The notes under the pieces were generated by a model. That model searched no databases and had not been told where the DNA came from. It saw nothing but the letters and a program-made list of their open reading frames with translations. Source: Desulfobulbaceae bacterium (GTDB taxonomy: Bacteria > Desulfobacterota > Desulfobulbia > Desulfobulbales > Desulfobulbaceae). From it: 44,514 bases of DNA. Both the position numbers and the translations under genes were made by a program. Positions 7,103 through 22,849 of this stretch are shown in pieces. How positions within the stretch are numbered: position 1 is the first letter of the stretch; every line of letters begins with the position of its first letter. The stretch lies in NCBI GenBank assembly GCA_011391865.1, contig JAABPV010000018.1, forward strand, positions 1-44,514. Direction: 5' to 3'.

Positions 7103-8131
7103 TCAGCTGCGGTTGAGCCAGCCTTGCTCCCGGTACCAGAGCGCGGTTTCCCGCAGTCCGCTCTCGTTGCTGTGCCGCAGGCGGTAGCCCAGCACCGTGT
7201 TCAGCTTGGCGATGTTGAATTTGCGGTCTTTGGTGTAGAAGGCCACCCGGCGGCGGTAGATCGGTGGCTGGAGGCCCAGCGGCGTGCAGACCGCCTTGCA
7301 GAGGTCGGCGGCAAGAAAAAAGGGCCAGATCGGCAGGCGGATGACCCGCATCTCCTTGCCCAAGGCCTGAGCGATGACGCGCCCCATGTCGATGATCGAA
7401 ATCGGCTCGTCGTTGGCGGCGATGAAGACCTGCGAGAGCGCTTTGTCCGAAACAGCGGCCAGCAGAAAAATCTCGGTCAGGTCATCAACATGAATCAGAT
7501 GGTAGATGCCCTTGCCTTTGCCGAGCATCAGCAGCCAGCCGCTGTTGGCCATCTTGAAGAATTTGAGCAGCCGCTGGTCGCCGGGGCCAAAAATTGGCGT
7601 GGGCCGGATGATGGTGTATGGAATGTCGCTGGCTGACGCGAACTCGGCCAGCCACTGCTCGCCCTCCAGCTTGGTGCGCTGATAGCCGTCGCCGGGGCTG
7701 AACGGCGAATTTTCATCCGCCTTGCCGTCGCCGGGAATATGCCCATGCACGCCCACTGTTGAGGCATGGACAAAGCGTTTGAAATCAGCTCTGCCTTTGA
7801 CCGCCTCGGCCAGCAGCTGGGTGGAATGCAGATGCACTCGGCGGTAGCCCTCATCCGTGCCTTTTTCCTCGCGGAAGGCGGCGGCCAGATGGAAAATATA
7901 GGCTGCGCCCTCTGCTGCCGCGCTGACCGTGGCCGGATCAAAGACCTCGCCCCGAAACCAGCGGACCGGCAGCCCGCTGAGGTCGCCAAGATCCGAGGAA
8001 GGGCGGGCGATGGCCTGAATCTCCGCTCCGGCGGCGGCCAGCTTGTGCGTCAGCACCCGGCCAGTGAAGCCGGTGGCCCCGGTGATCAGGACTTTCGCCC
8101 CCTTGAACTGCTCATGCACTGAATTGCTCAC
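7103..8131 (-). CDS. NAD-dependent epimerase/dehydratase (extended SDR)
   Basis: 342 residues. The Rossmann nucleotide-binding motif is TGATGFTG (G18, G21, G24), and the catalytic pair is Y150xxxK154 with the preceding Ser/Thr in HASTVGVHG. The C-terminal half is typical of extended SDRs of the GalE/3-beta-HSD branch. It most likely makes or modifies a nucleotide sugar for the surrounding glycan genes; the exact reaction cannot be read from sequence. The start is GTG at 8131, supported by AAGGAAAAG about five bases upstream. Gap of 14 bases to the upstream DTHLH protein. Confidence 0.85.
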   Translation of the reverse strand: MSNSVHEQFKGAKVLITGATGFTGRVLTHKLAAAGAEIQAIARPSSDLGDLSGLPVRWFRGEVFDPATVSAAAEGAAYIFHLAAAFREEKGTDEGYRRVHLHSTQLLAEAVKGRADFKRFVHASTVGVHGHIPGDGKADENSPFSPGDGYQRTKLEGEQWLAEFASASDIPYTIIRPTPIFGPGDQRLLKFFKMANSGWLLMLGKGKGIYHLIHVDDLTEIFLLAAVSDKALSQVFIAANDEPISIIDMGRVIAQALGKEMRVIRLPIWPFFLAADLCKAVCTPLGLQPPIYRRRVAFYTKDRKFNIAKLNTVLGYRLRHSNESGLRETALWYREQGWLNRS

Positions 8132-8145
8132 GTCTTTTCCTTGTT

Positions 8146-8919
8146 TTAAACTGAAGAGGCGGCCCTGCGGACTGCGGCGTTGCGGCGCAGGCGGCGGAGC
8201 AGCTCCAGCAGCCCGGACCGCCTGCCGACGCTGCTGGCGGCGGCCTTGCCTTGCAGCAGGGCGCGGAGCAGCGCGTCCGGCTCCAGCTCCGCCGCAGCTG
8301 TCAGCCGGGAGCCGCAGCTGCCGAATTTGTCCTCCTCGCCGCTGAAGGGCAGCGGATCGGAGCCGCAGATCATTTGATATCCCAAACAGCGAGCCTTGCG
8401 GAGCAGCGGCGGCAGCGGCCAGCCCGCAGGCCGCAGGCTGACATCGCCGATGAGAAGATTTTGGCCGCTGAACTGCCGCAGCAGGCCGTCAATGACCTTG
8501 CCACGCTGAAACAGCCATTTGCCCGGCGACCACGGCAGCACCGGCACGCCATTGCCCGCCCGGATGGATTTGATCAGCGCCGTCGCCGGAAGACCGTCGG
8601 CAAAAAGCGCGTCTGTGCAAAGGGCCAGCACCTCAATCCGCTCTGCGGCGACAATCTGGCGGCCCGGCAGCAGGCAGAGGCGGCTGCCGTCGCTGCTGCG
8701 CCGCAGGATGAGCTGGCGGCGGTCAGCAGCCTCAAGCGTGAAATCGCGCAGTAGAATGTCACCGAGCCGCAGCCGCTCATAAACATGGCAGTCAGCCCGT
8801 TCCGCGAGAAAGCCTGCCCGGAGCGCACCGCCGCCAAGCTGATCAAGCAGGCGGGAGAAGGCGCGGTCCAAATCATAGCAGGGGTAAAGATGCAGATGCG
8901 TGTCGGCCAGCAGGTCCAT
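8146..8919 (-). CDS. PHP/amidohydrolase-like protein with N-terminal DTHLH motif
   Basis: 257 residues starting MDLLADTHLHLYPCYD. The DTHLH motif is the first metal-binding site of amidohydrolase, TatD and PHP-type enzymes. Later motifs are less clear: a possible second site is IGDVSLRPAG, and CGSDPLPFSGEED near residue 200 has the GSDPLP signature seen in amidohydrolases and PHP proteins of sugar clusters. The protein is not closely recognisable, and specificity is unknown. I chose the ATG at 8919 because it lies just after the upstream stop (four-base gap), and the longer in-frame extension overlaps the glycosyltransferase with no family resemblance. A role in glycan or lipid precursor metabolism is inferred only from context. 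Confidence 0.6.
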   Translation of the reverse strand: MDLLADTHLHLYPCYDLDRAFSRLLDQLGGGALRAGFLAERADCHVYERLRLGDILLRDFTLEAADRRQLILRRSSDGSRLCLLPGRQIVAAERIEVLALCTDALFADGLPATALIKSIRAGNGVPVLPWSPGKWLFQRGKVIDGLLRQFSGQNLLIGDVSLRPAGWPLPPLLRKARCLGYQMICGSDPLPFSGEEDKFGSCGSRLTAAAELEPDALLRALLQGKAAASSVGRRSGLLELLRRLRRNAAVRRAASSV

Positions 8920-8923
8920 GCGC

Positions 8924-10093
8924 TCAGTCCTGCCGGTCCAATTCGGCGTAGGCCCGCTCCAGCCTGCGCTGAAAGGCGGCGAAATTGTATTTCTGCTCAT
9001 AGAGCAACCTGCCGTTGGCGCCGAGCCGCTGCCGCAGTGCCGGGTCTCCGGCCAGCCGGATGAGCTGGGCGGCGAAGGAGGCCGGTTCGGGTTGGGCAAA
9101 GAGCGCGGTGGTCTCATTGAGAATAAGCTGGTTGGACGGCACGTCCGCCGCGACAATAGCCCGGCCCGCTTTGTAATAGTCCAGCACCTTCAGCGGGGTG
9201 TTGACCCCGGACTGCCGGGGCGCGGCAAGGATGTCCGAGGCGGCGAGATAGTCCGGCAGCTCGTCCGGGGCCACCCGGCCCAGAAAAGCAACCTGCTCCG
9301 CCGCGCCGCGTTCGGTCAGCCAAGCCCGCTGCCGGGCGATTTCCTCTTCGCTGCCGCCGATGATCACGAAACGGGCCTGCGGCAGCGCGGCGCAGACTGT
9401 CGGCATGGCCTCGAAGAGCATCTCCACCCCCTGATAAATAGCGAAGGAACCGACATAGGTGATGAGCAGCTCATCAGGCCGCTGGCGCAGCCGCGCCCCG
9501 ATTGCGGCGGTGCGGGCCGGGCTGGCCTCAGTCATCGAGGAGGCCATGTCGTAAATGGTGTGCACCGGCTTGTCCGTGCCCACAGCCTGCGCCTGCCGGG
9601 TCAGGCCCGCGCCGGTGCAGATGACCAAGTCCGCCCGGCGGATGACAAAAGACTCCACAGCGGCATAGCAGGAGAGGAGAAAATTTTTGAGCATCCCCCG
9701 GCGGTAGGAGAACGGGTCGGAATGTTTCTCAAACACCGCTTTGGTCTTGAAAAGCCGGGCTAAAAGCAGGGCGATGAAGCCCGCCTCTTCGATGCCGTGG
9801 ATCAGGTCGTAACGGCGGCGGCGCAGCAGGGCGGCGGCTTTGCAGAACAGGATGAGGTCAAAGCCCAGCTTGAGCGGCGAGGGGCCGATGGCGATCTGCT
9901 TGGCCCGGAAAAGATTGGGAGCGCGGATGATGCGGACATTGCGGATCTGCTCGTCCTCGCCAAATGGCAGGGTGAGCAGATCCACGGCATGGCCGGACTC
10001 GCTCAGGCTTTTGAGGACAAAGCGCACCCGGATCGGCGAGCCGCGCCACTGAAAAAAAGGCTGCGGGCTGATGAGGAGTATCTTTCGGTTCAC
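8924..10093 (-). CDS. GT4-family glycosyltransferase
   Basis: 389 residues with the GT-B layout. The N-terminal half has the glycine loop region MNRKILLISPQPFFQWRGSP; the C-terminal half contains ITYVGSFAIYQGVE, FLGRVAPDELPDYLAASDILAAP and the NTPLKVLDYYKAGRAIVA segment typical of the family-4 nucleotide-sugar binding site (E/LKxLxYxAxGxP). It should be a retaining transferase that adds a sugar from a nucleotide donor to a lipid or glycan acceptor at the cytoplasmic membrane. The start codon is GTG sharing one base with the dxs stop (TAGTG), so it is translationally coupled to dxs. The downstream gene follows after four bases. Confidence 0.9.
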   Translation of the reverse strand: MNRKILLISPQPFFQWRGSPIRVRFVLKSLSESGHAVDLLTLPFGEDEQIRNVRIIRAPNLFRAKQIAIGPSPLKLGFDLILFCKAAALLRRRRYDLIHGIEEAGFIALLLARLFKTKAVFEKHSDPFSYRRGMLKNFLLSCYAAVESFVIRRADLVICTGAGLTRQAQAVGTDKPVHTIYDMASSMTEASPARTAAIGARLRQRPDELLITYVGSFAIYQGVEMLFEAMPTVCAALPQARFVIIGGSEEEIARQRAWLTERGAAEQVAFLGRVAPDELPDYLAASDILAAPRQSGVNTPLKVLDYYKAGRAIVAADVPSNQLILNETTALFAQPEPASFAAQLIRLAGDPALRQRLGANGRLLYEQKYNFAAFQRRLERAYAELDRQD

Positions 10094-12503: not shown

Positions 12504-12917
12504 ATGGCGACTTGGAGCTACGAAGCGTTTGCCTCAGCAAATTCAGGCAGAACCGGGATCATGGAGTTGGAGGGCAAGGTGACGGCACTGCTCGAATCCT
12601 TGGGCGCGCGGGCCGAACATGCGAAAACGGCCATGACCAACGTGGTCGGCGGCACAGCCAGGGCCGTGGTTTATTTTCCCGACATGGCCATCGCCGTGCC
12701 GCCGCTGCGCAGCATTGCGGGCTGGAGGAAAGGCGATGCCAACACCATCGCCGATTCCGCCGACACTGAGCGCTACAAGGAGGAGATGTACCAGAGCATT
12801 GTCGAGATGCTGAACGCCCTGCCGGACATTCAGGCGGCCTTGAGCAAGATTTCCGCCACGGCCTGCAAGAATGGCTGCGCGACCATCACCATCTGGTATC
12901 CGACTGAAACAGCGTGA
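12504..12917 (+). CDS. Hypothetical protein coupled to a tyrosine recombinase
   Basis: 137 residues, no family recognised. The middle (residues 25-45) is a helix, AxxLESLGARAEHAK, and there are two short hydrophobic stretches (ARAVVYFPDMAIAVPPL) but no clear transmembrane segment or signal peptide. The C-terminus, ACKNGCATITIWYPTETA, contains two cysteines. Its stop overlaps the GTG start of the recombinase by four bases (GTGA), so the two are translated together and may work together. A promoter lies about 70 bases upstream. Start ATG at 12504 follows GGAG with a modest spacing (GGAGCGGAACC). Confidence 0.55.
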   Translation: MATWSYEAFASANSGRTGIMELEGKVTALLESLGARAEHAKTAMTNVVGGTARAVVYFPDMAIAVPPLRSIAGWRKGDANTIADSADTERYKEEMYQSIVEMLNALPDIQAALSKISATACKNGCATITIWYPTETA

Positions 12918-13828
12918 AGCCCGCGCCGCTGGCAGCTTTCATTGACTGGCTGCGGATCGAGCGCGGCTACTCCGAGCGCACGGTGGAGAGCTACAGCCGC
13001 GATGTGGAGGAGTTCCTTCGCAGTCTGGGCGGCGGCACGGCGGATATTACCACAATCGGCCCGCCGCAGGTGCAGCAGCATCTCGCCTCCCTCTATCTGG
13101 GCAATTCCGCCGCCTCAGTGGCCCGGAAGATGTCCTCGCTGCGGGTCTTCTTTCGCCACTGCCTCCGCCTGGGCCTGCTTGCTGCCGACCCGATGGCCGG
13201 GCTGGCCGGGCCGAAGCTGGCCAAGCATATTCCGGTCTATTTGACCGTGGATGAGGTCTTCAGCCTGCTGGAGGAGCCGAAGCCGCAGCAGGACAGCCTG
13301 TATCAGCGCGACCGGGCGGTGCTGGAGTTGATCTACTCAACTGGGATGCGGGTCTCCGAGGCGGCGGCGGCCAATCTGGCTGATGCAGACTTCGAGGCAG
13401 GGATGATGAAAATCCGGGGCAAGGGTGGCAAGGAGCGGCTGGTTCCCTTTGGCAGGGCGGCGGAGGATGCACTGCGGCAGTGGCTGCCTCTGCGCGGCCA
13501 GCTCACCGCCGCCCGGATCACGCGGGGCGATGTGCCGGAGCGGGACGCGCTCTTTCTCAACAGCCGGGGAACGCGCCTGACCGTGCGCAGCATTGAGCGG
13601 ATGGCAGCCGCCTACGGCCAGCGGGCAGGCATCAGCGTGGAAGTCACGCCCCACGCCCTGCGCCATTCCTTTGCCACCCATCTGCTGGAGATGGGCATGG
13701 ATCTGCGCATGGTGCAGGAGCTGCTCGGCCATGTCAGCCTCTCAACCACGCAGAAATACACTCATCTTGACATGGCCCACCTCAGCAAGGTCTATGACCG
13801 GGCGCACCCCAAGGCTGACCGCTCCTGA
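12914..13828 (+). CDS. xerC: Tyrosine recombinase, XerC/XerD type
   Basis: 304 residues, the standard length. The N-terminal SAM-like core-binding domain starts about residue 5 (FIDWLRIERGYSERTVESYSRD). All catalytic residues are visible: R146 (STGMRVSE), K170 (RGKGGKER), H247 and R250 (HALRHSFATH), H273 (LGHVSLSTTQ) and the nucleophile Y282 (KYTHLD). Xer enzymes resolve chromosome dimers at dif together with a partner recombinase and are recruited by FtsK. Xer function is inferred; integrases of mobile elements look similar, but no element ends are seen and the sequence is close to the XerC/D consensus. Start is GTG overlapping the preceding stop. A palindromic array lies just downstream. 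Confidence 0.9.
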   Translation: MKPAPLAAFIDWLRIERGYSERTVESYSRDVEEFLRSLGGGTADITTIGPPQVQQHLASLYLGNSAASVARKMSSLRVFFRHCLRLGLLAADPMAGLAGPKLAKHIPVYLTVDEVFSLLEEPKPQQDSLYQRDRAVLELIYSTGMRVSEAAAANLADADFEAGMMKIRGKGGKERLVPFGRAAEDALRQWLPLRGQLTAARITRGDVPERDALFLNSRGTRLTVRSIERMAAAYGQRAGISVEVTPHALRHSFATHLLEMGMDLRMVQELLGHVSLSTTQKYTHLDMAHLSKVYDRAHPKADRS

Positions 13829-13904
13829 TCTGAATTCTTGCATAACGAGCCGAGCTGTTCATCTCCACCAGTTCTGTCCCAGCCGCCCGCAAACACTCTC
13901 TGCC

Positions 13905-14062
13905 GGAGTCACCATAGTGTCTCTTGCAGAGATACTATGGTGACTCCGGTTGAGACACTACGGTGTCTCCAGTGGAGACACTATAGTGTCTCGGTAGGAG
14001 ATACTCTGCTGACTCCGATGGAGACACTATGGTATCTCTTTAGGGAGACACCATAGTGTCTC
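13905..14062. repeat. Array of seven 18-19-nt palindromes, period 23-24 bp
   Basis: Units start at 13905, 13929, 13952, 13975, 13998, 14021 and 14045, so the spacing is 24, 23, 23, 23, 23, 24. The best unit is GAGACACTATAGTGTCTC, an exact palindrome; units 1, 2 and 5 carry GGAGTC/GACTCC variants. Spacers of 4-6 bases are unconserved. The array sits in the convergent intergenic region between xerC and the TIR gene. The last unit is followed by five T residues (14063-14067) and could double as the xerC terminator. The remainder of 13829-14145 shows nothing else. Confidence 0.9.
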
Positions 14063-14145
14063 TTTTTGCGTCCCCGTGCGGCGGAGACGATGAAGGCCAG
14101 TCTTGCGGGCCAGCTCCTCCCAGTTTATGCTGGAGGACGTGCTGG

Positions 14146-15570
14146 TTATTCAATATTCCCTGTCCGCTGCACCAGTGCTTCGCTGTCTGGGGCAATCGCC
14201 AATGCTCCCTTGGTGTTGCCGCGAAGGTCATTGTCCTCGAAGATGCCTCCTCCTTTGTCCCATACAAAAATACCCCAGTCTCTGTTCTGAGAGATGCAGT
14301 TACAGCGTAGGGTAGCATTGCTGCTTGGCATGATCACCACACCGGAACCTTCGTTGGCAAATATTTCGTTCTCCTCCAGTGTCCCTTGGCCGCCGTAGCC
14401 GACAAGGACACCATTTACCCCATCATGAATGAGGTTGCGACGCAGGAGAGAATTTGCGCTGCCGCTGATGACCACACATGTCGATCCCTGACTGGATATG
14501 TCGCAATCCTCCAATTCAAGCCTGCCTTGAGTAATGTCGACAGTAATACATCTTTTCACGGCTGCTTGACATATGGTCAGGTTGAAAATTCGTCCATTGT
14601 CTGCTTTGAATAGAACGGTCTCCTTGCCAGATGCTTGAATCACAATCTCGCTTCGCTCTCCGTCTCCTATGATCTCGACTGTCTTATCAATCACAATGCC
14701 TTCTATGTACAAGCCAGGCCGGACAAGAATGCGTGTGCCTGCTTTGACGGCCTTGAGTGCCTCAGTGATTGTTGCATAATCGCCACGGTGCCAAGCGTCC
14801 ACCACCACGGTTGGCGGCTCGGTCTTTATAGCCGCCGCATGTTGTGGCTTGGCATTTTGCAGCGGTGAAGCGTAATAGTAATTGTTCTGCGTGGATATAG
14901 CATTGCTGCCCTGCGCAATGTTCTGGTCTCCGCCTTTAGATTGGAACGTGTTGGCAGAGCTGGCAGTTTCCTTGCCATCCTTCTTGGCTTGCTGTGGCGG
15001 CGGTGTTTCCTTGGCTGCATCTGCTTTCCGCACAGACTCGGCACGGGCAGCTTCCGCCTCGCTTCGCTCCAATGCTTCCATAAGCTGCTCCGCCAGCTTC
15101 GCAAACGCCCTGCGGCACTGCGACGAAGCGAAGTCTTCAAAGCGCAGCTCGCGCCAGTCCGCATACTGCCGCGCCACGATAATCTGCGCCAGTTTGTCGC
15201 GCTCCCGCTTTGCTTTGTCGCTCAGAACAGGGCAGCTAACGTAATAGACCGGCAGAATCAAATCACCGCGTCGCAGTTCCTCTTCGCGCTTCAGAAAACG
15301 CTCCAGCTCTTCCCGGCAGGCATCGCTTCTGAAGAATGCTGGCGTGATGATCGGCAGGAGAAATGTGGTCGCATCAAGCGAGCCGTTGATGCGCTCTTGC
15401 CATTGCTGGCCCCAAGCAATGTCCTTGCGGTCTTGAAATATCTCAAACGCCTCACCGGTCTGCATCCGCACCGCCCGGCTCAAATGCTCGCGGAACTGCG
15501 TGATCAGACCATTCTCATGCTGGTCATCCAGATTCACATAGCTCATGAAGGCTTTCGGTGTCCGGCTCAA
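14146..15570 (-). CDS. TIR-domain protein fused to a right-handed parallel beta-helix
   Basis: 474 residues. Residues 5-160 are a TIR domain: strand A KAFMSYVNLD, the box with FEIFQDRKDI, and SDACREELERF, in which the conserved C85xxEL (E88) is the position of the NADase glutamate in catalytic TIRs. Residues 165-215 are a charged, low-complexity linker followed by the glycine-asparagine motif QNIAQGSNAISTQNNYYY. Residues 260-474 form repeated short strands (GVNGVLVGYGGQGTLEENEI and GSGVVIMPSSNATLRCN, here quoted in part) typical of pectate-lyase/NosD beta-helices. TIR proteins in bacteria commonly act in antiphage signalling or NAD+ depletion; that role is inference. I take the TTG at 15570 because GGAGGG lies seven bases upstream; the next ATG is in the same frame and within the TIR domain. 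No neighbours suggest a partner gene. Confidence 0.8.
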   Translation of the reverse strand: MSRTPKAFMSYVNLDDQHENGLITQFREHLSRAVRMQTGEAFEIFQDRKDIAWGQQWQERINGSLDATTFLLPIITPAFFRSDACREELERFLKREEELRRGDLILPVYYVSCPVLSDKAKRERDKLAQIIVARQYADWRELRFEDFASSQCRRAFAKLAEQLMEALERSEAEAARAESVRKADAAKETPPPQQAKKDGKETASSANTFQSKGGDQNIAQGSNAISTQNNYYYASPLQNAKPQHAAAIKTEPPTVVVDAWHRGDYATITEALKAVKAGTRILVRPGLYIEGIVIDKTVEIIGDGERSEIVIQASGKETVLFKADNGRIFNLTICQAAVKRCITVDITQGRLELEDCDISSQGSTCVVISGSANSLLRRNLIHDGVNGVLVGYGGQGTLEENEIFANEGSGVVIMPSSNATLRCNCISQNRDWGIFVWDKGGGIFEDNDLRGNTKGALAIAPDSEALVQRTGNIE

Positions 15571-15687
15571 GGCGATTCCCTCCGCAGCGGCAATGGTTGC
15601 TTATTTTTGCATCAGCCGCATAATAACCGTGTTTCTGCCGCGCTGCAAGAGACAGCCTGCTGTCTCTTCGCATGTCCCTGTCCTGCC

Positions 15688-15751
15688 GCCGCCGCAACAA
15701 TCCCATTGACAAACCCGCTGCCGCGCTTTAGTTTCTGCCTGACGCAGCAGC
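15688..15751 (+). repeat. Dispersed 64-bp repeat, copy B, containing the hisD promoter
   Basis: This copy differs from 347-410 at only four positions. It contains TTGACA (15706-15711), a 17-base spacer and TAGTTT (15729-15734), and lies 54 bases before hisD. The flanks on either side are unrelated between the two copies. Confidence 0.8.
15706..15734 (+). promoter_or_regulatory. Probable sigma-70 type promoter of hisD
   Basis: TTGACA, 17 bases, TAGTTT. The arrangement is shared with the DUF4469 promoter through the 64-bp repeat; the transcription start should lie about 15741 and leave a leader of some 65 bases. Confidence 0.55.
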
Positions 15752-15804
15752 GGCTCGGCGGCGCAGTCGCACATCCACTTTGTTTGCAGAATAAAGGAAC
15801 AACC

Positions 15805-17100
15805 ATGAATATCAACATCTACGACCTGAACACACTCTCAGCGGCGGACAAGGCAAGAATCCTGCGCCGCTCCGAGTTAGACATCGAGGGCTTTCAGGAG
15901 ACTGTGCGGCCCATCATCAAGGCGGTGCGGGAGCGCGGCGATCAAGCCTTGGTCGAGTTCTGCGCCAAGTTTGACAAGGTGACGCTCGACCCCACAGCCA
16001 TTCAAGTGACTGAGGCGGAGTTTGAGCGGGCCGAGCGCAGCTTGGAGCCAGAGATCAAGGCGGTGATCGAGCGGGCAGCAGCCAACATCCGCAAGTTCCA
16101 TCAGGCCCAGATGCCGGAGGAGATGTGGTTCACGGAGATCAGCGAGGGCATTCTGGCGGGCGAGAAGATCACGCCGATCACCTCGGTCGGCATCTACGTG
16201 CCGCGCGGCAAAGGCTCGTTCCCCTCGGTCATGCTGATGCTCGGCATTCCGGCGGTGATTGCGGGCGTGCCGGAGATCATCATCTGCACCCCGCCCACGC
16301 CCGACGGCACGGTTGACGATGCCTCACTCTTCACGGCCAGAGTCTGCGGCATCAAGACGGTCTATAAGACCGGCGGGGCGCAGGCGATTGCGGCGATGGC
16401 GTTTGGCACTGAGACGGTGCGGAAGGTGCACAAGGTCATCGGGCCGGGCAACGCCTATGTGTCGGCAGCGAAACGCCTGCTCTACGGCCACATTGACGTG
16501 GGCACGCCCGCAGGCCCCAGCGAGTCCATCATCCTCTGCGACGAGCAGGCCGACCCGCGCATCGCCGCCCTTGACCTGCTGATTGAGGCCGAGCATGGCC
16601 CGGACTCCACTGCCTTGCTGGTGACGCATTCACGCGAGCTGGCGGACAAGGTGATGGCTCTGCTGCCGGACTTGATCGCTGATCTGCCGGAGAAGCGGCG
16701 TGAGTTCTGCACGGCTGTGCTGGGCAACTACGGCGGCATAGTGCTCACCAAAGACTTGGCCCAGTCCATTGCCTTTGTCAACGACTTTGCCCCGGAGCAT
16801 CTGGAGGTGCTGACTGCCGAGCCAATGCTGCTGCTGGCAAAGATCCGCAACGCTGGCGAGATACTGCTCGGCCAGCACACGCCGATCACGGTCGGCAACT
16901 ACGCGCTGGGCGTGAACGCCATCCTGCCCACCGGCGGCTTTGCCCGCACCTTCTCCTGCGTCACGGTCTTTGACTTCCTCAAACGCTCGTCCATTGGCTA
17001 CATGTCCAAGCAGGGCTATGACAGCCTCAAGGACGTGGCCATGCAGTTTGCCGACTACGAGGGCTTTCCTGCGCACGCGAATGCGGTGCGGAAGCGGTAG
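15805..17100 (+). CDS. hisD: Histidinol dehydrogenase
   Basis: 431 residues. Oxidises L-histidinol to L-histidine in two NAD-dependent steps, the last of histidine synthesis. Family blocks are clear: the N-terminal AxxILRRSELDIEGF, the NAD-site region YVPRGKGSFPSVMLMLGIPAVIAGVPEIIICTPP (quoted in part), KVIGPGNAYVSAAKRLLYG, and the catalytic DLLIEAEHGPDS with E and H that activate water. The C-terminal HTPITVGNYALGVNAILPT is also intact. The start ATG has AAAGGA upstream; a much longer upstream frame is antisense to the TIR gene and not coding. Stands alone rather than in a his operon. A terminator follows. Confidence 0.97.
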   Translation: MNINIYDLNTLSAADKARILRRSELDIEGFQETVRPIIKAVRERGDQALVEFCAKFDKVTLDPTAIQVTEAEFERAERSLEPEIKAVIERAAANIRKFHQAQMPEEMWFTEISEGILAGEKITPITSVGIYVPRGKGSFPSVMLMLGIPAVIAGVPEIIICTPPTPDGTVDDASLFTARVCGIKTVYKTGGAQAIAAMAFGTETVRKVHKVIGPGNAYVSAAKRLLYGHIDVGTPAGPSESIILCDEQADPRIAALDLLIEAEHGPDSTALLVTHSRELADKVMALLPDLIADLPEKRREFCTAVLGNYGGIVLTKDLAQSIAFVNDFAPEHLEVLTAEPMLLLAKIRNAGEILLGQHTPITVGNYALGVNAILPTGGFARTFSCVTVFDFLKRSSIGYMSKQGYDSLKDVAMQFADYEGFPAHANAVRKR

Positions 17101-20943: not shown

Positions 20944-22014
20944 TCAGTCCACTGTCTCGGCGAAATCCTCCCGCACCGCCTCAATGCCCTGCCCGGTGCT
21001 CTGCGGCGGCGGCGAGGAGAGCGGATTGTTGTCCAGCGTCAGCTCGGTCAGGTTGGCCATCTGACTGATTTCCGGCGGCAGCTCGCGGAGATGGTTGCTG
21101 TGCAGATTCAGCTCAGTCAGATCGTGCAGCTCGAAAAGGACCAGAGGAAACGCGCTCAGGTTGTTGCCGTAGAGGCAGAGCGACTCCAAGCTGCTCAGTC
21201 GGGCGATTTCCGGCGGCAGGTCAGTGAGATGATTGTTGTGCAGGTTCAGCTCGGTCAGGCCGGTCAGCGCGAAAACTTCAGGCGGCAGCTCGGTCAGCTC
21301 GTTTCTGCCGAGGCAGAGCACGGTCAGGCAGCCCAGTCGGGTGATTTCCGGTGGCAGACGGCGCAGCGTGTTGCCGCCCAAATACAGATGCGTCAGGCGG
21401 GCGAGCTGGCCGATGGTGGCAGGCAGCTCCGTCAGCTCGTTGTCCAGCAGGGACAGCTCGTTCAAACTGGCCAGCTGGCCGATTTCCGGCGGCAGCTCGG
21501 CAAGAAGGTTGTTGTCAAGATACAGCTCCCGCAGCTTGGTCAGGCGGAACAGTTCCGGCGGCAAGCGGCGGAGGCGGTTGCCGTTGAGGTGCAGCACCTG
21601 CAAATTGCTGAGCAGGCCGATCTCCGGCGGTAGTTCGCTGAGGCTGTTGCCGCTGAGATTGAGCTCCTGCAAATGGACAAGCTGGCCGATTTCCGGCGGC
21701 AGGCTGCTCAGGCGGTTGTTGAAGAGGTGCAGCTCGGTCAGGCCGACGAGCCGGGCGATGACCGGAGGCAGCTCGCTGAAGCTGTTGCCGCCAAGATTGA
21801 GCGATTGCAGCTCGTGCAGCTGCGTGATTTCCGGCGGCAGGCTGCTCAGGCAGTTGCCGCGCAGATTCAGCTCCCGCAGATGGGTCAGCGCGAGCAGTTC
21901 CGGCGGCAGCTCGGTCAGACGGCTGGCTATGAGGCTCAGGCTGGCCGCTTTGCTGTCCGCCGCTTTTTTGATCTTCATCACCTTAACCAGTTCTTCATTA
22001 GTCATCATCATCAT
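20944..22014 (-). CDS. Leucine-rich-repeat protein, Roco-type LRR without a GTPase domain
   Basis: 356 residues. After a 25-residue N-terminal segment (MMMMTNEELVKVMKIKKAADSK), about 13 tandem 23-residue repeats follow the pattern LPPEIxxLxxLxxLxLxxNxL, giving a solenoid of the bacterial Shoc2/Roco type. The C-terminal cap NPLSSPPPQSTGQGIEAVREDF matches the NPLxxPPxxxxxQGxxAIxxY signature that in Roco proteins joins the LRR to the Roc-COR GTPase, but here the protein ends there. No signal peptide or membrane segment. The first of four consecutive ATG codons at 22014 was chosen because GGAGG is four bases upstream; the next ATG gives a better seven-base spacing. Partner and function unknown; protein-protein binding is inferred. 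Confidence 0.9.
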   Translation of the reverse strand: MMMMTNEELVKVMKIKKAADSKAASLSLIASRLTELPPELLALTHLRELNLRGNCLSSLPPEITQLHELQSLNLGGNSFSELPPVIARLVGLTELHLFNNRLSSLPPEIGQLVHLQELNLSGNSLSELPPEIGLLSNLQVLHLNGNRLRRLPPELFRLTKLRELYLDNNLLAELPPEIGQLASLNELSLLDNELTELPATIGQLARLTHLYLGGNTLRRLPPEITRLGCLTVLCLGRNELTELPPEVFALTGLTELNLHNNHLTDLPPEIARLSSLESLCLYGNNLSAFPLVLFELHDLTELNLHSNHLRELPPEISQMANLTELTLDNNPLSSPPPQSTGQGIEAVREDFAETVD

Positions 22015-22036
22015 GCATCCTCCTTCCGCGCCTCTG

Positions 22037-22849
22037 TCACGGCAGCGCGGCATTTAAAGATTCTCCCTGCTGCGAGGCGAAATAGCTTTGAATCGCCTCA
22101 ATGCCTTGGCTGGCCAGCAGCAGGGGCGGCGTGGTCAGCGGGTTGTCCTCCAGCAGCAGGGTGTTCAGCTTGGTCAGGCGGCAGAACTCCTGCGGCAGCG
22201 AGATCAGCTGGTTGAGCCGAAGATTCAGTTTGGTGAGCTTGGTGAGCTTGCCGATTTCCGGCGGCAGCGTGGTCAGTTGGTTGCGACTGAGGATGAGCGT
22301 GGTCAGATTGGTCAGCGCGCAGACTTCCAGAGGCAGCTCGGTGAGGTTGTTGCCGCTCAGGTCCAGCTCAGTGAGATGGGTCAGCTCGGCCAGCTCCGCT
22401 GGCAGTTCGGTGAGCTGATTGAAGCCGAGGCGAAGATGCGGCTGCCGGGTCAGTTTGGAGATTTCCGGCGGCAGCGAGGTCAGCTTGTTCCAGCTCAAAA
22501 CTAAGCTGGAGAGATTGGGCAGCAGCAGCAACTCTGGCGGCAGCTCGGTGAGCCGGTTGAAGCTGATGTCCAGCTCTGCCAGATTGGTGAGCTGGCAGAT
22601 GCCCGACGGCAGCGAAGTCAGCTCGTTGTCGCTGAGGTCCAGATGGGTCAGGTTGGTCAGCAGGCCAATCTCCGACGGCAGCGACGAAAGCTGATTGAAA
22701 CTCAGATCCAAATGCGTCAGGTTAATGAGATCAAAGATCTCTGGCGGCAGCATGGTCAGCCCGTGGTCGCTGAGGTTGAGGCTGGTCACCTCCTCGTGCC
22801 CGTCGTCTCCGTTCTCCTCACAGTCCTCAGGCATCTCATCGTTGATCAT
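22037..22849 (-). CDS. Leucine-rich-repeat protein, paralogue of the downstream gene
   Basis: 270 residues. After an acidic N-terminus (MINDEMPEDCEENGDDGHEE), about nine 23-residue repeats of the form LPPEIxxLTNLTxLDLSxNQL run to the C-terminal cap NPLTTPPLLLASQGIEAIQSYF. The cap is the Roco-type signature found also in the neighbouring gene. It precedes that gene by 22 bases in the same orientation, so both are probably one transcript and arose by tandem duplication. GGAGGAATATA precedes the ATG, an excellent ribosome binding site. It carries no other domain; a binding role is inferred. Confidence 0.9.
   Translation of the reverse strand: MINDEMPEDCEENGDDGHEEVTSLNLSDHGLTMLPPEIFDLINLTHLDLSFNQLSSLPSEIGLLTNLTHLDLSDNELTSLPSGICQLTNLAELDISFNRLTELPPELLLLPNLSSLVLSWNKLTSLPPEISKLTRQPHLRLGFNQLTELPAELAELTHLTELDLSGNNLTELPLEVCALTNLTTLILSRNQLTTLPPEIGKLTKLTKLNLRLNQLISLPQEFCRLTKLNTLLLEDNPLTTPPLLLASQGIEAIQSYFASQQGESLNAALP

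Follow-up and report, generated by a model that had tools for sequence, protein, structure and literature searches.

In this study, we identified a gene of a cable bacterium that joins a TIR domain, through a linker, to a right-handed beta-helix. The linker carries a short motif that resembles a fungal sigma peptide and recurs on NB-ARC and TPR proteins of the same and a neighboring genus. We tentatively read the encoded protein as an intracellular immune-type effector, in which the TIR domain would act as a putative NADase, the beta-helix would sense or restrain, and clustering of the sigma-like linker would activate. Close relatives belong to Candidatus Electronema, and the host is therefore a cable bacterium, a multicellular filament that conducts electricity. 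The architecture first seen in the sequence was confirmed, and its interpretation as a conflict protein is supported in part. The gene lies in the window, the whole stretch of 44,514 nucleotides that was analyzed, and is organized as follows.

14146..15570, minus strand: TIR-linker-beta-helix gene of 474 aa, running from a TTG start at 15570 to a stop codon whose last base is 14146
15578..15583, minus strand: GGAGGG, ribosome-binding-site-like by sequence, 7 nt upstream of the TTG
15055..15570, minus strand: TIR domain, residues 1-172 (Pfam TIR_2/TIR; NCBIfam FxsC_Nterm below its cut-off; PDB L6 plant TIR)
15307..15318, minus strand: C85-R-E-E88, putative catalytic Glu motif (alignment of 10 homologues)
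15010..15123, minus strand: long helix, residues 150-187 (AF2 model)
14863..14952, minus strand: sigma-like linker motif NTFQSKGGDQNIAQGSNAISTQNNYYYASP, residues 207-236 (motif profile, sigma identity, AF2 disorder)
14149..14823, minus strand: right-handed beta-helix, residues 250-474 (Pfam Beta_helix, AF2, fold comparison)
12914-13828, plus strand: tyrosine recombinase, neighboring gene
15805-17100, plus strand: hisD, neighboring gene

Since it is flanked by the tyrosine recombinase and hisD, the TIR-beta-helix gene stands alone, and the single-gene locus that had been proposed from the sequence is supported. Neither a partner gene typical of known antiphage TIR systems (Thoeris etc.) nor a motif-bearing partner gene adjoins it. 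The TTG start and the strong ribosome binding site had been taken as a hint of controlled low expression. The GGAGGG element is real, but the start codon at the same place in homologues is ATG or GTG, with TTG in one other paralogue; TTG is thus not conserved and gives no sign of controlled expression. Elsewhere in the window (20944-22053, minus strand), a 369-aa leucine-rich-repeat protein is encoded (Pfam LRR_8, E 3e-49).

The linker (residues 191-249) is disordered in the AF2 model and contains QNIAQGSNAISTQNNYYY at about residues 216-233. A blast search with the window protein reached TPR and NB-ARC-TPR proteins solely through linker residues. The window copy matches a motif profile with an E of 1.7e-17 per genome, the profile being built from seven copies of which the window copy is one row. 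This match and the recurrence of similar copies in dozens of further proteins show that the motif did not arise by chance. With the seven-copy profile, five copies were found in the own genome, and the motif was detected in 5/5 Electronema genomes and in two of the three genomes of genus g14, and in none of 49 other relatives. A 20-copy profile found it in 0/394 other genomes of a 395-genome phylum sample. Judged by dxs identity (76-77%), genus g14, probably Candidatus Electrothrix, is the one closest to Electronema. After removal of duplicates, 43 distinct proteins of Electronema and its sister genus carry the motif: 10 NB-ARC-TPR proteins, 23 TPR-type proteins, 4 small proteins, 3 TIR-beta-helix proteins and 3 short or TM proteins. 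Among the larger carriers, Pfam detects TPR in 31/33 and NB-ARC in 10. The sequence-only reading had likened the linker to Asn-rich motifs of bacterial conflict systems; the link to conflict-type NB-ARC/TPR proteins stands, but the motif is a specific, reused one and not generically Asn-rich.

The motif is N-terminal in nearly all carriers and central in the TIR-beta-helix protein. In the four small carriers (one of them modeled), the end that bears the motif is disordered and the rest forms a four-helix bundle whose last helix is hydrophobic, so that they are alike in general plan to Bell/HeLo death effectors. In some adjacent gene pairs the motif is present on both members (L064 and L062/L101; more weakly L014 and L086). 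At L064, L062/L101 and L014, a four-helix-bundle gene and a TPR or NB-ARC-TPR gene, with the motif on both, are candidate receptor-effector pairs. Such adjacency is found at 3-4 loci of the motif family, and the window gene is not among them.

L064:1019-1402 and 1423-2163: four-helix-bundle gene plus TPR or NB-ARC-TPR gene
L062:1748-2128 with L101:1073-3136: four-helix-bundle gene plus TPR or NB-ARC-TPR gene
L014:12633-13007 and 13042: four-helix-bundle gene plus TPR or NB-ARC-TPR gene

The fungal sigma peptide and window residues 208-230 are identical at 11 of 23 positions in an ungapped alignment (score 55), a score that none of 5000 shuffles reached. Against the motif profile, the sigma peptide beats 500/500 shuffles. 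When it was used as query, the window protein ranked first of 2908 ORFs, followed mostly by other motif proteins; this set was taken from fetched loci and is enriched in motif proteins, so that the shuffle control is the only clean test. A Methanothrix peptide beats 499/500 shuffles with the seven-copy profile, but in pairwise alignment the BASS3-type peptides of Methanothrix and Frankia show only weak similarity to the motif. A BASS3-like assignment was set aside, the pairwise match to the BASS3 peptide being weak. Four peptides are described in PMC8086366; three are reported there to form amyloid-like aggregates, the fungal sigma (AAS80314) among them. The fungal sigma is stated to be without sequence homology to the bacterial amyloid signaling sequences, or BASS (PMC12261475, 2025). 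The likeness of the cable-bacterium motif to the Nectria haematococca sigma motif is an order-specific one of sequence, and the fungal motif occurs in an effector/NLR context without a TIR effector or a beta-helix.

In amyloid signaling, NLR-type receptors and their effectors have one short motif in common, and the cable-bacterium motif is distributed in this way. The closest precedent is provided by the BASS motifs and their NLR/Bell pairs (Dyrka 2020, described in PMC7889193 and PMC8086366). There, too, an N-terminal motif is found on NLR-like proteins and is common to small helical-bundle and TIR proteins, partly in adjacent genes, and both groups of motifs occur in filamentous bacteria. 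However, BASS was described mainly from actinobacteria and cyanobacteria, and the motif from cable bacteria resembles fungal sigma and not the BASS3/RHIM peptides with which it was compared. In published pairs the effector motif is C-terminal; in cable bacteria, the TIR protein has it in the middle and the small proteins have it at their N-terminus, and the motif carriers are, unlike those of BASS, mostly TPR proteins. BASS motifs are also known with TIR and CHAT domains (PMC7889193), and a TIR domain with an amyloid motif is therefore a known kind of protein. The protein described here is set apart by the sigma-like sequence, its central position and the beta-helix. We lean slightly towards the view that the linker motif forms a signaling amyloid. 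The shared motif on NLR-like proteins suggests an unrecognized immune signaling network.

The motif is not a general property of the family. It is absent from 7/10 aligned homologues (L016-L020, L031, L033), which possess the TIR and the beta-helix; the motif is thus an add-on that is not essential to the family, and in view of these paralogues it has probably provided a TIR-beta-helix pair that already worked with a further input or a further way of clustering. The same homologues, the lack of a conserved neighboring gene and coils that combine a conserved scaffold with variable positions also fit a simpler explanation, namely a single-gene sensor-effector in which an intracellular ligand would act through the beta-helix alone to switch on the TIR domain, the motif being a passive flexible spacer acquired by recombination with TPR genes. 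This is the strongest competitor of the amyloid reading, but we regard it as unlikely. Three TIR-beta-helix genes, each at another site in the genome, have retained the motif, with its invariant positions held while the surrounding linker diverges, and the NB-ARC/TPR proteins bear this very motif; both points argue against a passive spacer.

Alternatively, the motif might be a non-amyloid oligomerization or docking tag, such as a short beta-roll or a coiled trimer, that joins TIR, TPR and NB-ARC proteins. The regular G-x-x-A-I-G-x-Q spacing common to many proteins would agree with such a tag, as would the lack of any fold in the AF2 model of the motif alone. However, the motif peptides match no Pfam family, oligomerization repeats included, at E up to 1, and the likeness to the amyloidogenic sigma motif is order-specific. 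A docking tag appears improbable.

The TIR domain is detected above cut-offs by Pfam TIR_2 (E 2e-10, 41.6 bits, cut-off 28) and TIR (E 5e-6, 26.7 bits, cut-off 21.3). The C85-x-x-E88-L motif, which had been called intact, is so, and it aligns with the C-x-x-E-L of the flax L6 TIR. C85, R86 and E88 are invariant in 10 aligned homologues from three phyla, E88 across Electronema, Streptomyces, Frankia and Bradyrhizobium, and this residue is also in place in the second Streptomycetaceae copy. An AF2 model built with ten homologues shows alternating strands and helices in a TIR-like arrangement at modest confidence (pLDDT about 46-77). PADLOC returned weak TIR matches only. The antiphage TIR NADases (Thoeris ThsB, TIR-STING, SpbK and others) have the same TIR fold and putative catalytic Glu; unlike these, the window protein ends in a beta-helix and is without a cyclase, STING or ThsA partner. 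Judged by its conserved residues, the TIR domain is probably an NADase.

The closest curated model of the TIR domain is FxsC_Nterm (NF040588), with 48.7 bits against a cut-off of 130, and no activity test of that family was found. Together with the modest AF2 confidence, this would be compatible with a TIR domain that is a scaffold or inactive, in a protein acting as a regulatory adaptor and not as an NADase. The invariant C-x-x-E in 10/10 aligned homologues makes this reading quite improbable. For the TIR domain and for a motif-bearing NB-ARC-TPR protein, the best curated matches include the FxsC TIR-like protein and the FxSxx-COOH system TPR protein (NF040586), respectively, but both matches are far under the curated cut-offs, and no FxSxx peptide or radical-SAM gene adjoins the window gene.

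The beta-helix of about 200 residues expected from the sequence was recovered as a Pfam Beta_helix match above cut-off (residues 324-459, E 8e-17) and in the AF2 model, where it spans about 220 residues (254-474) with pLDDT mostly >90. Fold comparison gave Z (VIA) of up to 25, with pectin-lyase-type folds as matches. The repeat fold is that of NosD/TIGR03804 parallel beta-helix proteins; in contrast to NosD, the window protein is fused to a TIR domain and lacks an obvious signal peptide, as judged by eye, and the NosD subfamily cut-off is missed. A phage-structure-like (tailspike-like) or glycan-binding sensor, as put forward in the sequence-only reading, is very improbable, for although alginate lyases/epimerases and phage tailspikes are among the nearest folds, these matches are generic, no tailspike PHROG was matched (the sole PHROG match is an unnamed family, on the TIR part), no relative was found in phages or viral contigs, there is no DPH motif, and a signal peptide is not obvious. 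A function as epimerase or lyase was considered and rejected, the match being at fold level only and the DPH motif of AlgE-type epimerases being absent. Human FBXO11, considered as a candidate beta-helix relative, was not among the PDB sequence or fold matches listed.

The number of beta-helix coils differs among homologues, by up to several extra 46-residue double coils. In the aligned coils, positions 4, 6, 13, 22, 27 and 32 never vary, while positions 10-12, 15, 17, 18 and 21 are highly variable. This pattern is the one to be expected of a fixed scaffold with a variable surface, although any solenoid shows some of the same. In our reading, the beta-helix would be a cytosolic recognition or restraint module that diversifies in sequence faster than the TIR domain, and we hold a role as sensor to be slightly more likely than not.

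Compared with the Electronema aureum copy (L014), the window protein is 96% identical in the TIR domain and 57% in the beta-helix. The TIR domain has a dN of 0.022 and a dS of 0.25, whereas the values are 0.26 and 0.90 in the beta-helix cap and 0.39 and 1.02 in the coils, and nucleotide identity falls after about residue 175. With a dS of 0.25 in the TIR against about 1.0 in the beta-helix, the gene is of mosaic origin. When several other paralogues are compared, the dS of the beta-helix is below or similar to that of the TIR. In the TIR tree, the window gene groups with L014 (support 100/100) and a grouping with L019 is rejected (p 3e-6). The beta-helix tree joins the window gene and L019 (support 93/94), yet the AU test does not reject window plus L014 (p 0.18), and a beta-helix swap from the L019 lineage was therefore not adopted. 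The TIR half and the beta-helix half thus differ in their recent history, with a switch near the linker, the mosaic jump in dS being the sole firm part of this history. The fast divergence of the beta-helix may result from recombination or relaxed constraint.

The architecture is not confined to the window. Full-length TIR plus beta-helix proteins recur in Electronema, Streptomyces calvus, another Streptomycetaceae genome, Bradyrhizobium and Frankia, and the own genome holds a paralogue (G000:C13); absence from other genomes, which had been named as a refutation of the sequence-only reading, is thus not the case. It is rare, the own genome being the sole match among 395 sampled phylum genomes, with two full-length copies in 298 sampled Streptomycetaceae. 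Co-localization with defense genes, which had been named as support, is not shown by these copies: around the Streptomyces, Frankia and Bradyrhizobium copies there is no conserved defense neighbor, only a lone PIN-domain gene, and no defense-island evidence was found outside Electronema. No description of a TIR-beta-helix conflict protein was found in the open-access literature searched. Related genes differ in their modules. L021 (8001-9044, plus strand) encodes a TIR followed by a different C-terminal domain, of no assigned family, and in L028 (2705-3283, minus strand) most of the TIR is deleted; we read these paralogues as birth-and-death of modules. A close TIR relative with a different C-terminal region is encoded on Agrobacterium tumefaciens plasmid pAtCG920 (L106, about 7990-9450, plus strand), in an ORF missing from the PLSDB gene table and near caspase, TIR and DUF262 genes. 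Three TIR paralogues without the motif, located at separate sites, each have a divergently oriented DUF4469-type gene as neighbor.

L019:6560-7726, minus strand: DUF4469-type gene (Pfam-tested)
L021:6565-7638, minus strand: DUF4469-type gene
L031:3890-4788, plus strand: DUF4469-type gene

In Electronema, several TIR-beta-helix genes lie beside arrays of about 23-bp palindromic units.

13906..14062: array of seven ~23-bp units, every unit being an imperfect palindrome of 18 bp (GAGACACTATRGTGTCTC type), directly 3' of the gene
15649..15666: single palindrome GAGACAGCCTGCTGTCTC, upstream of the gene
G000:C13:11196-11352: palindrome array elsewhere in the own genome
G000:C87:455-610 and 1495-1512: palindrome arrays elsewhere in the own genome
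L143-L148 and L052: further array loci in Electronema

The same array type adjoins the TIR-beta-helix genes in G000:C13, L014, L015 and L016. In the own genome, arrays were found only at the two TIR-beta-helix genes and on C87, where the array lies beside a stretch read by eye as a HepT/MntA-like pair. Across Electronema, the arrays adjoin TIR-beta-helix genes, MmeI-type restriction genes and MNT-HepT, and also DUF4231 plus caspase, PRTase-CE plus NADAR, a HetE-N-like protein and a few other genes. L146 (1620-2147, plus strand) encodes, beside an array, a protein of 175 aa that matches HetE-N below the threshold (E 8e-4); its Gly/Ala-rich C-terminal part contains NSSSGEQN, and it resembles a helical-bundle effector with a C-terminal signaling tail. 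The orthologous hisD loci were compared (window 13877-15773 vs L161 3958-5163). In E. aureum (L161, G003:C11), the array is kept with 87% identity and hisD with 94%, an unrelated 237-aa gene (L161:4234-4947, minus strand) replaces the TIR gene, and MNT-HepT is present on the other side. The hisD locus is a likely cargo-exchange site at which conflict cargo would be swapped beside arrays, and the arrays themselves could possibly serve as recombination site, terminator or regulator binding site.

In the reading that we tentatively prefer, these elements would work together as follows. Engagement of the beta-helix would free the linker motif to self-template; alternatively, the motif would be templated by NB-ARC-TPR or TPR proteins with the same motif at their N-terminus. 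Stacking of the motifs would cluster the TIR domains, which, as executor, would then cleave NAD+, and NAD+ consumption would kill or arrest one cell of the filament. Trans-activation of the TIR-beta-helix protein by NLR-like proteins is possible, though we put it somewhat below an even chance. With slightly more reserve, one may envisage a sigma-type amyloid network, in which NB-ARC/TPR receptors would template not only small four-helix bundles that act on membranes but also a TIR NADase with its own exchangeable beta-helix sensor.

Amyloid signaling connects fungal prions, animal necroptosis and proposed bacterial NLR systems. If true, the network proposed here would be the first bacterial amyloid network resembling the fungal sigma prion motif, and it would add a TIR architecture with a diversifying recognition domain that is neither LRR nor TPR. 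In our searches, the sigma-like motif was confined to one cable-bacterium genus and its nearest sister genus. Its presence on NLR-like, pore-like and TIR proteins would allow a direct test of whether amyloid-controlled cell death evolved with multicellular filaments that share resources, and, if the reading holds, a filament could switch off individual cells among those that it is made of.
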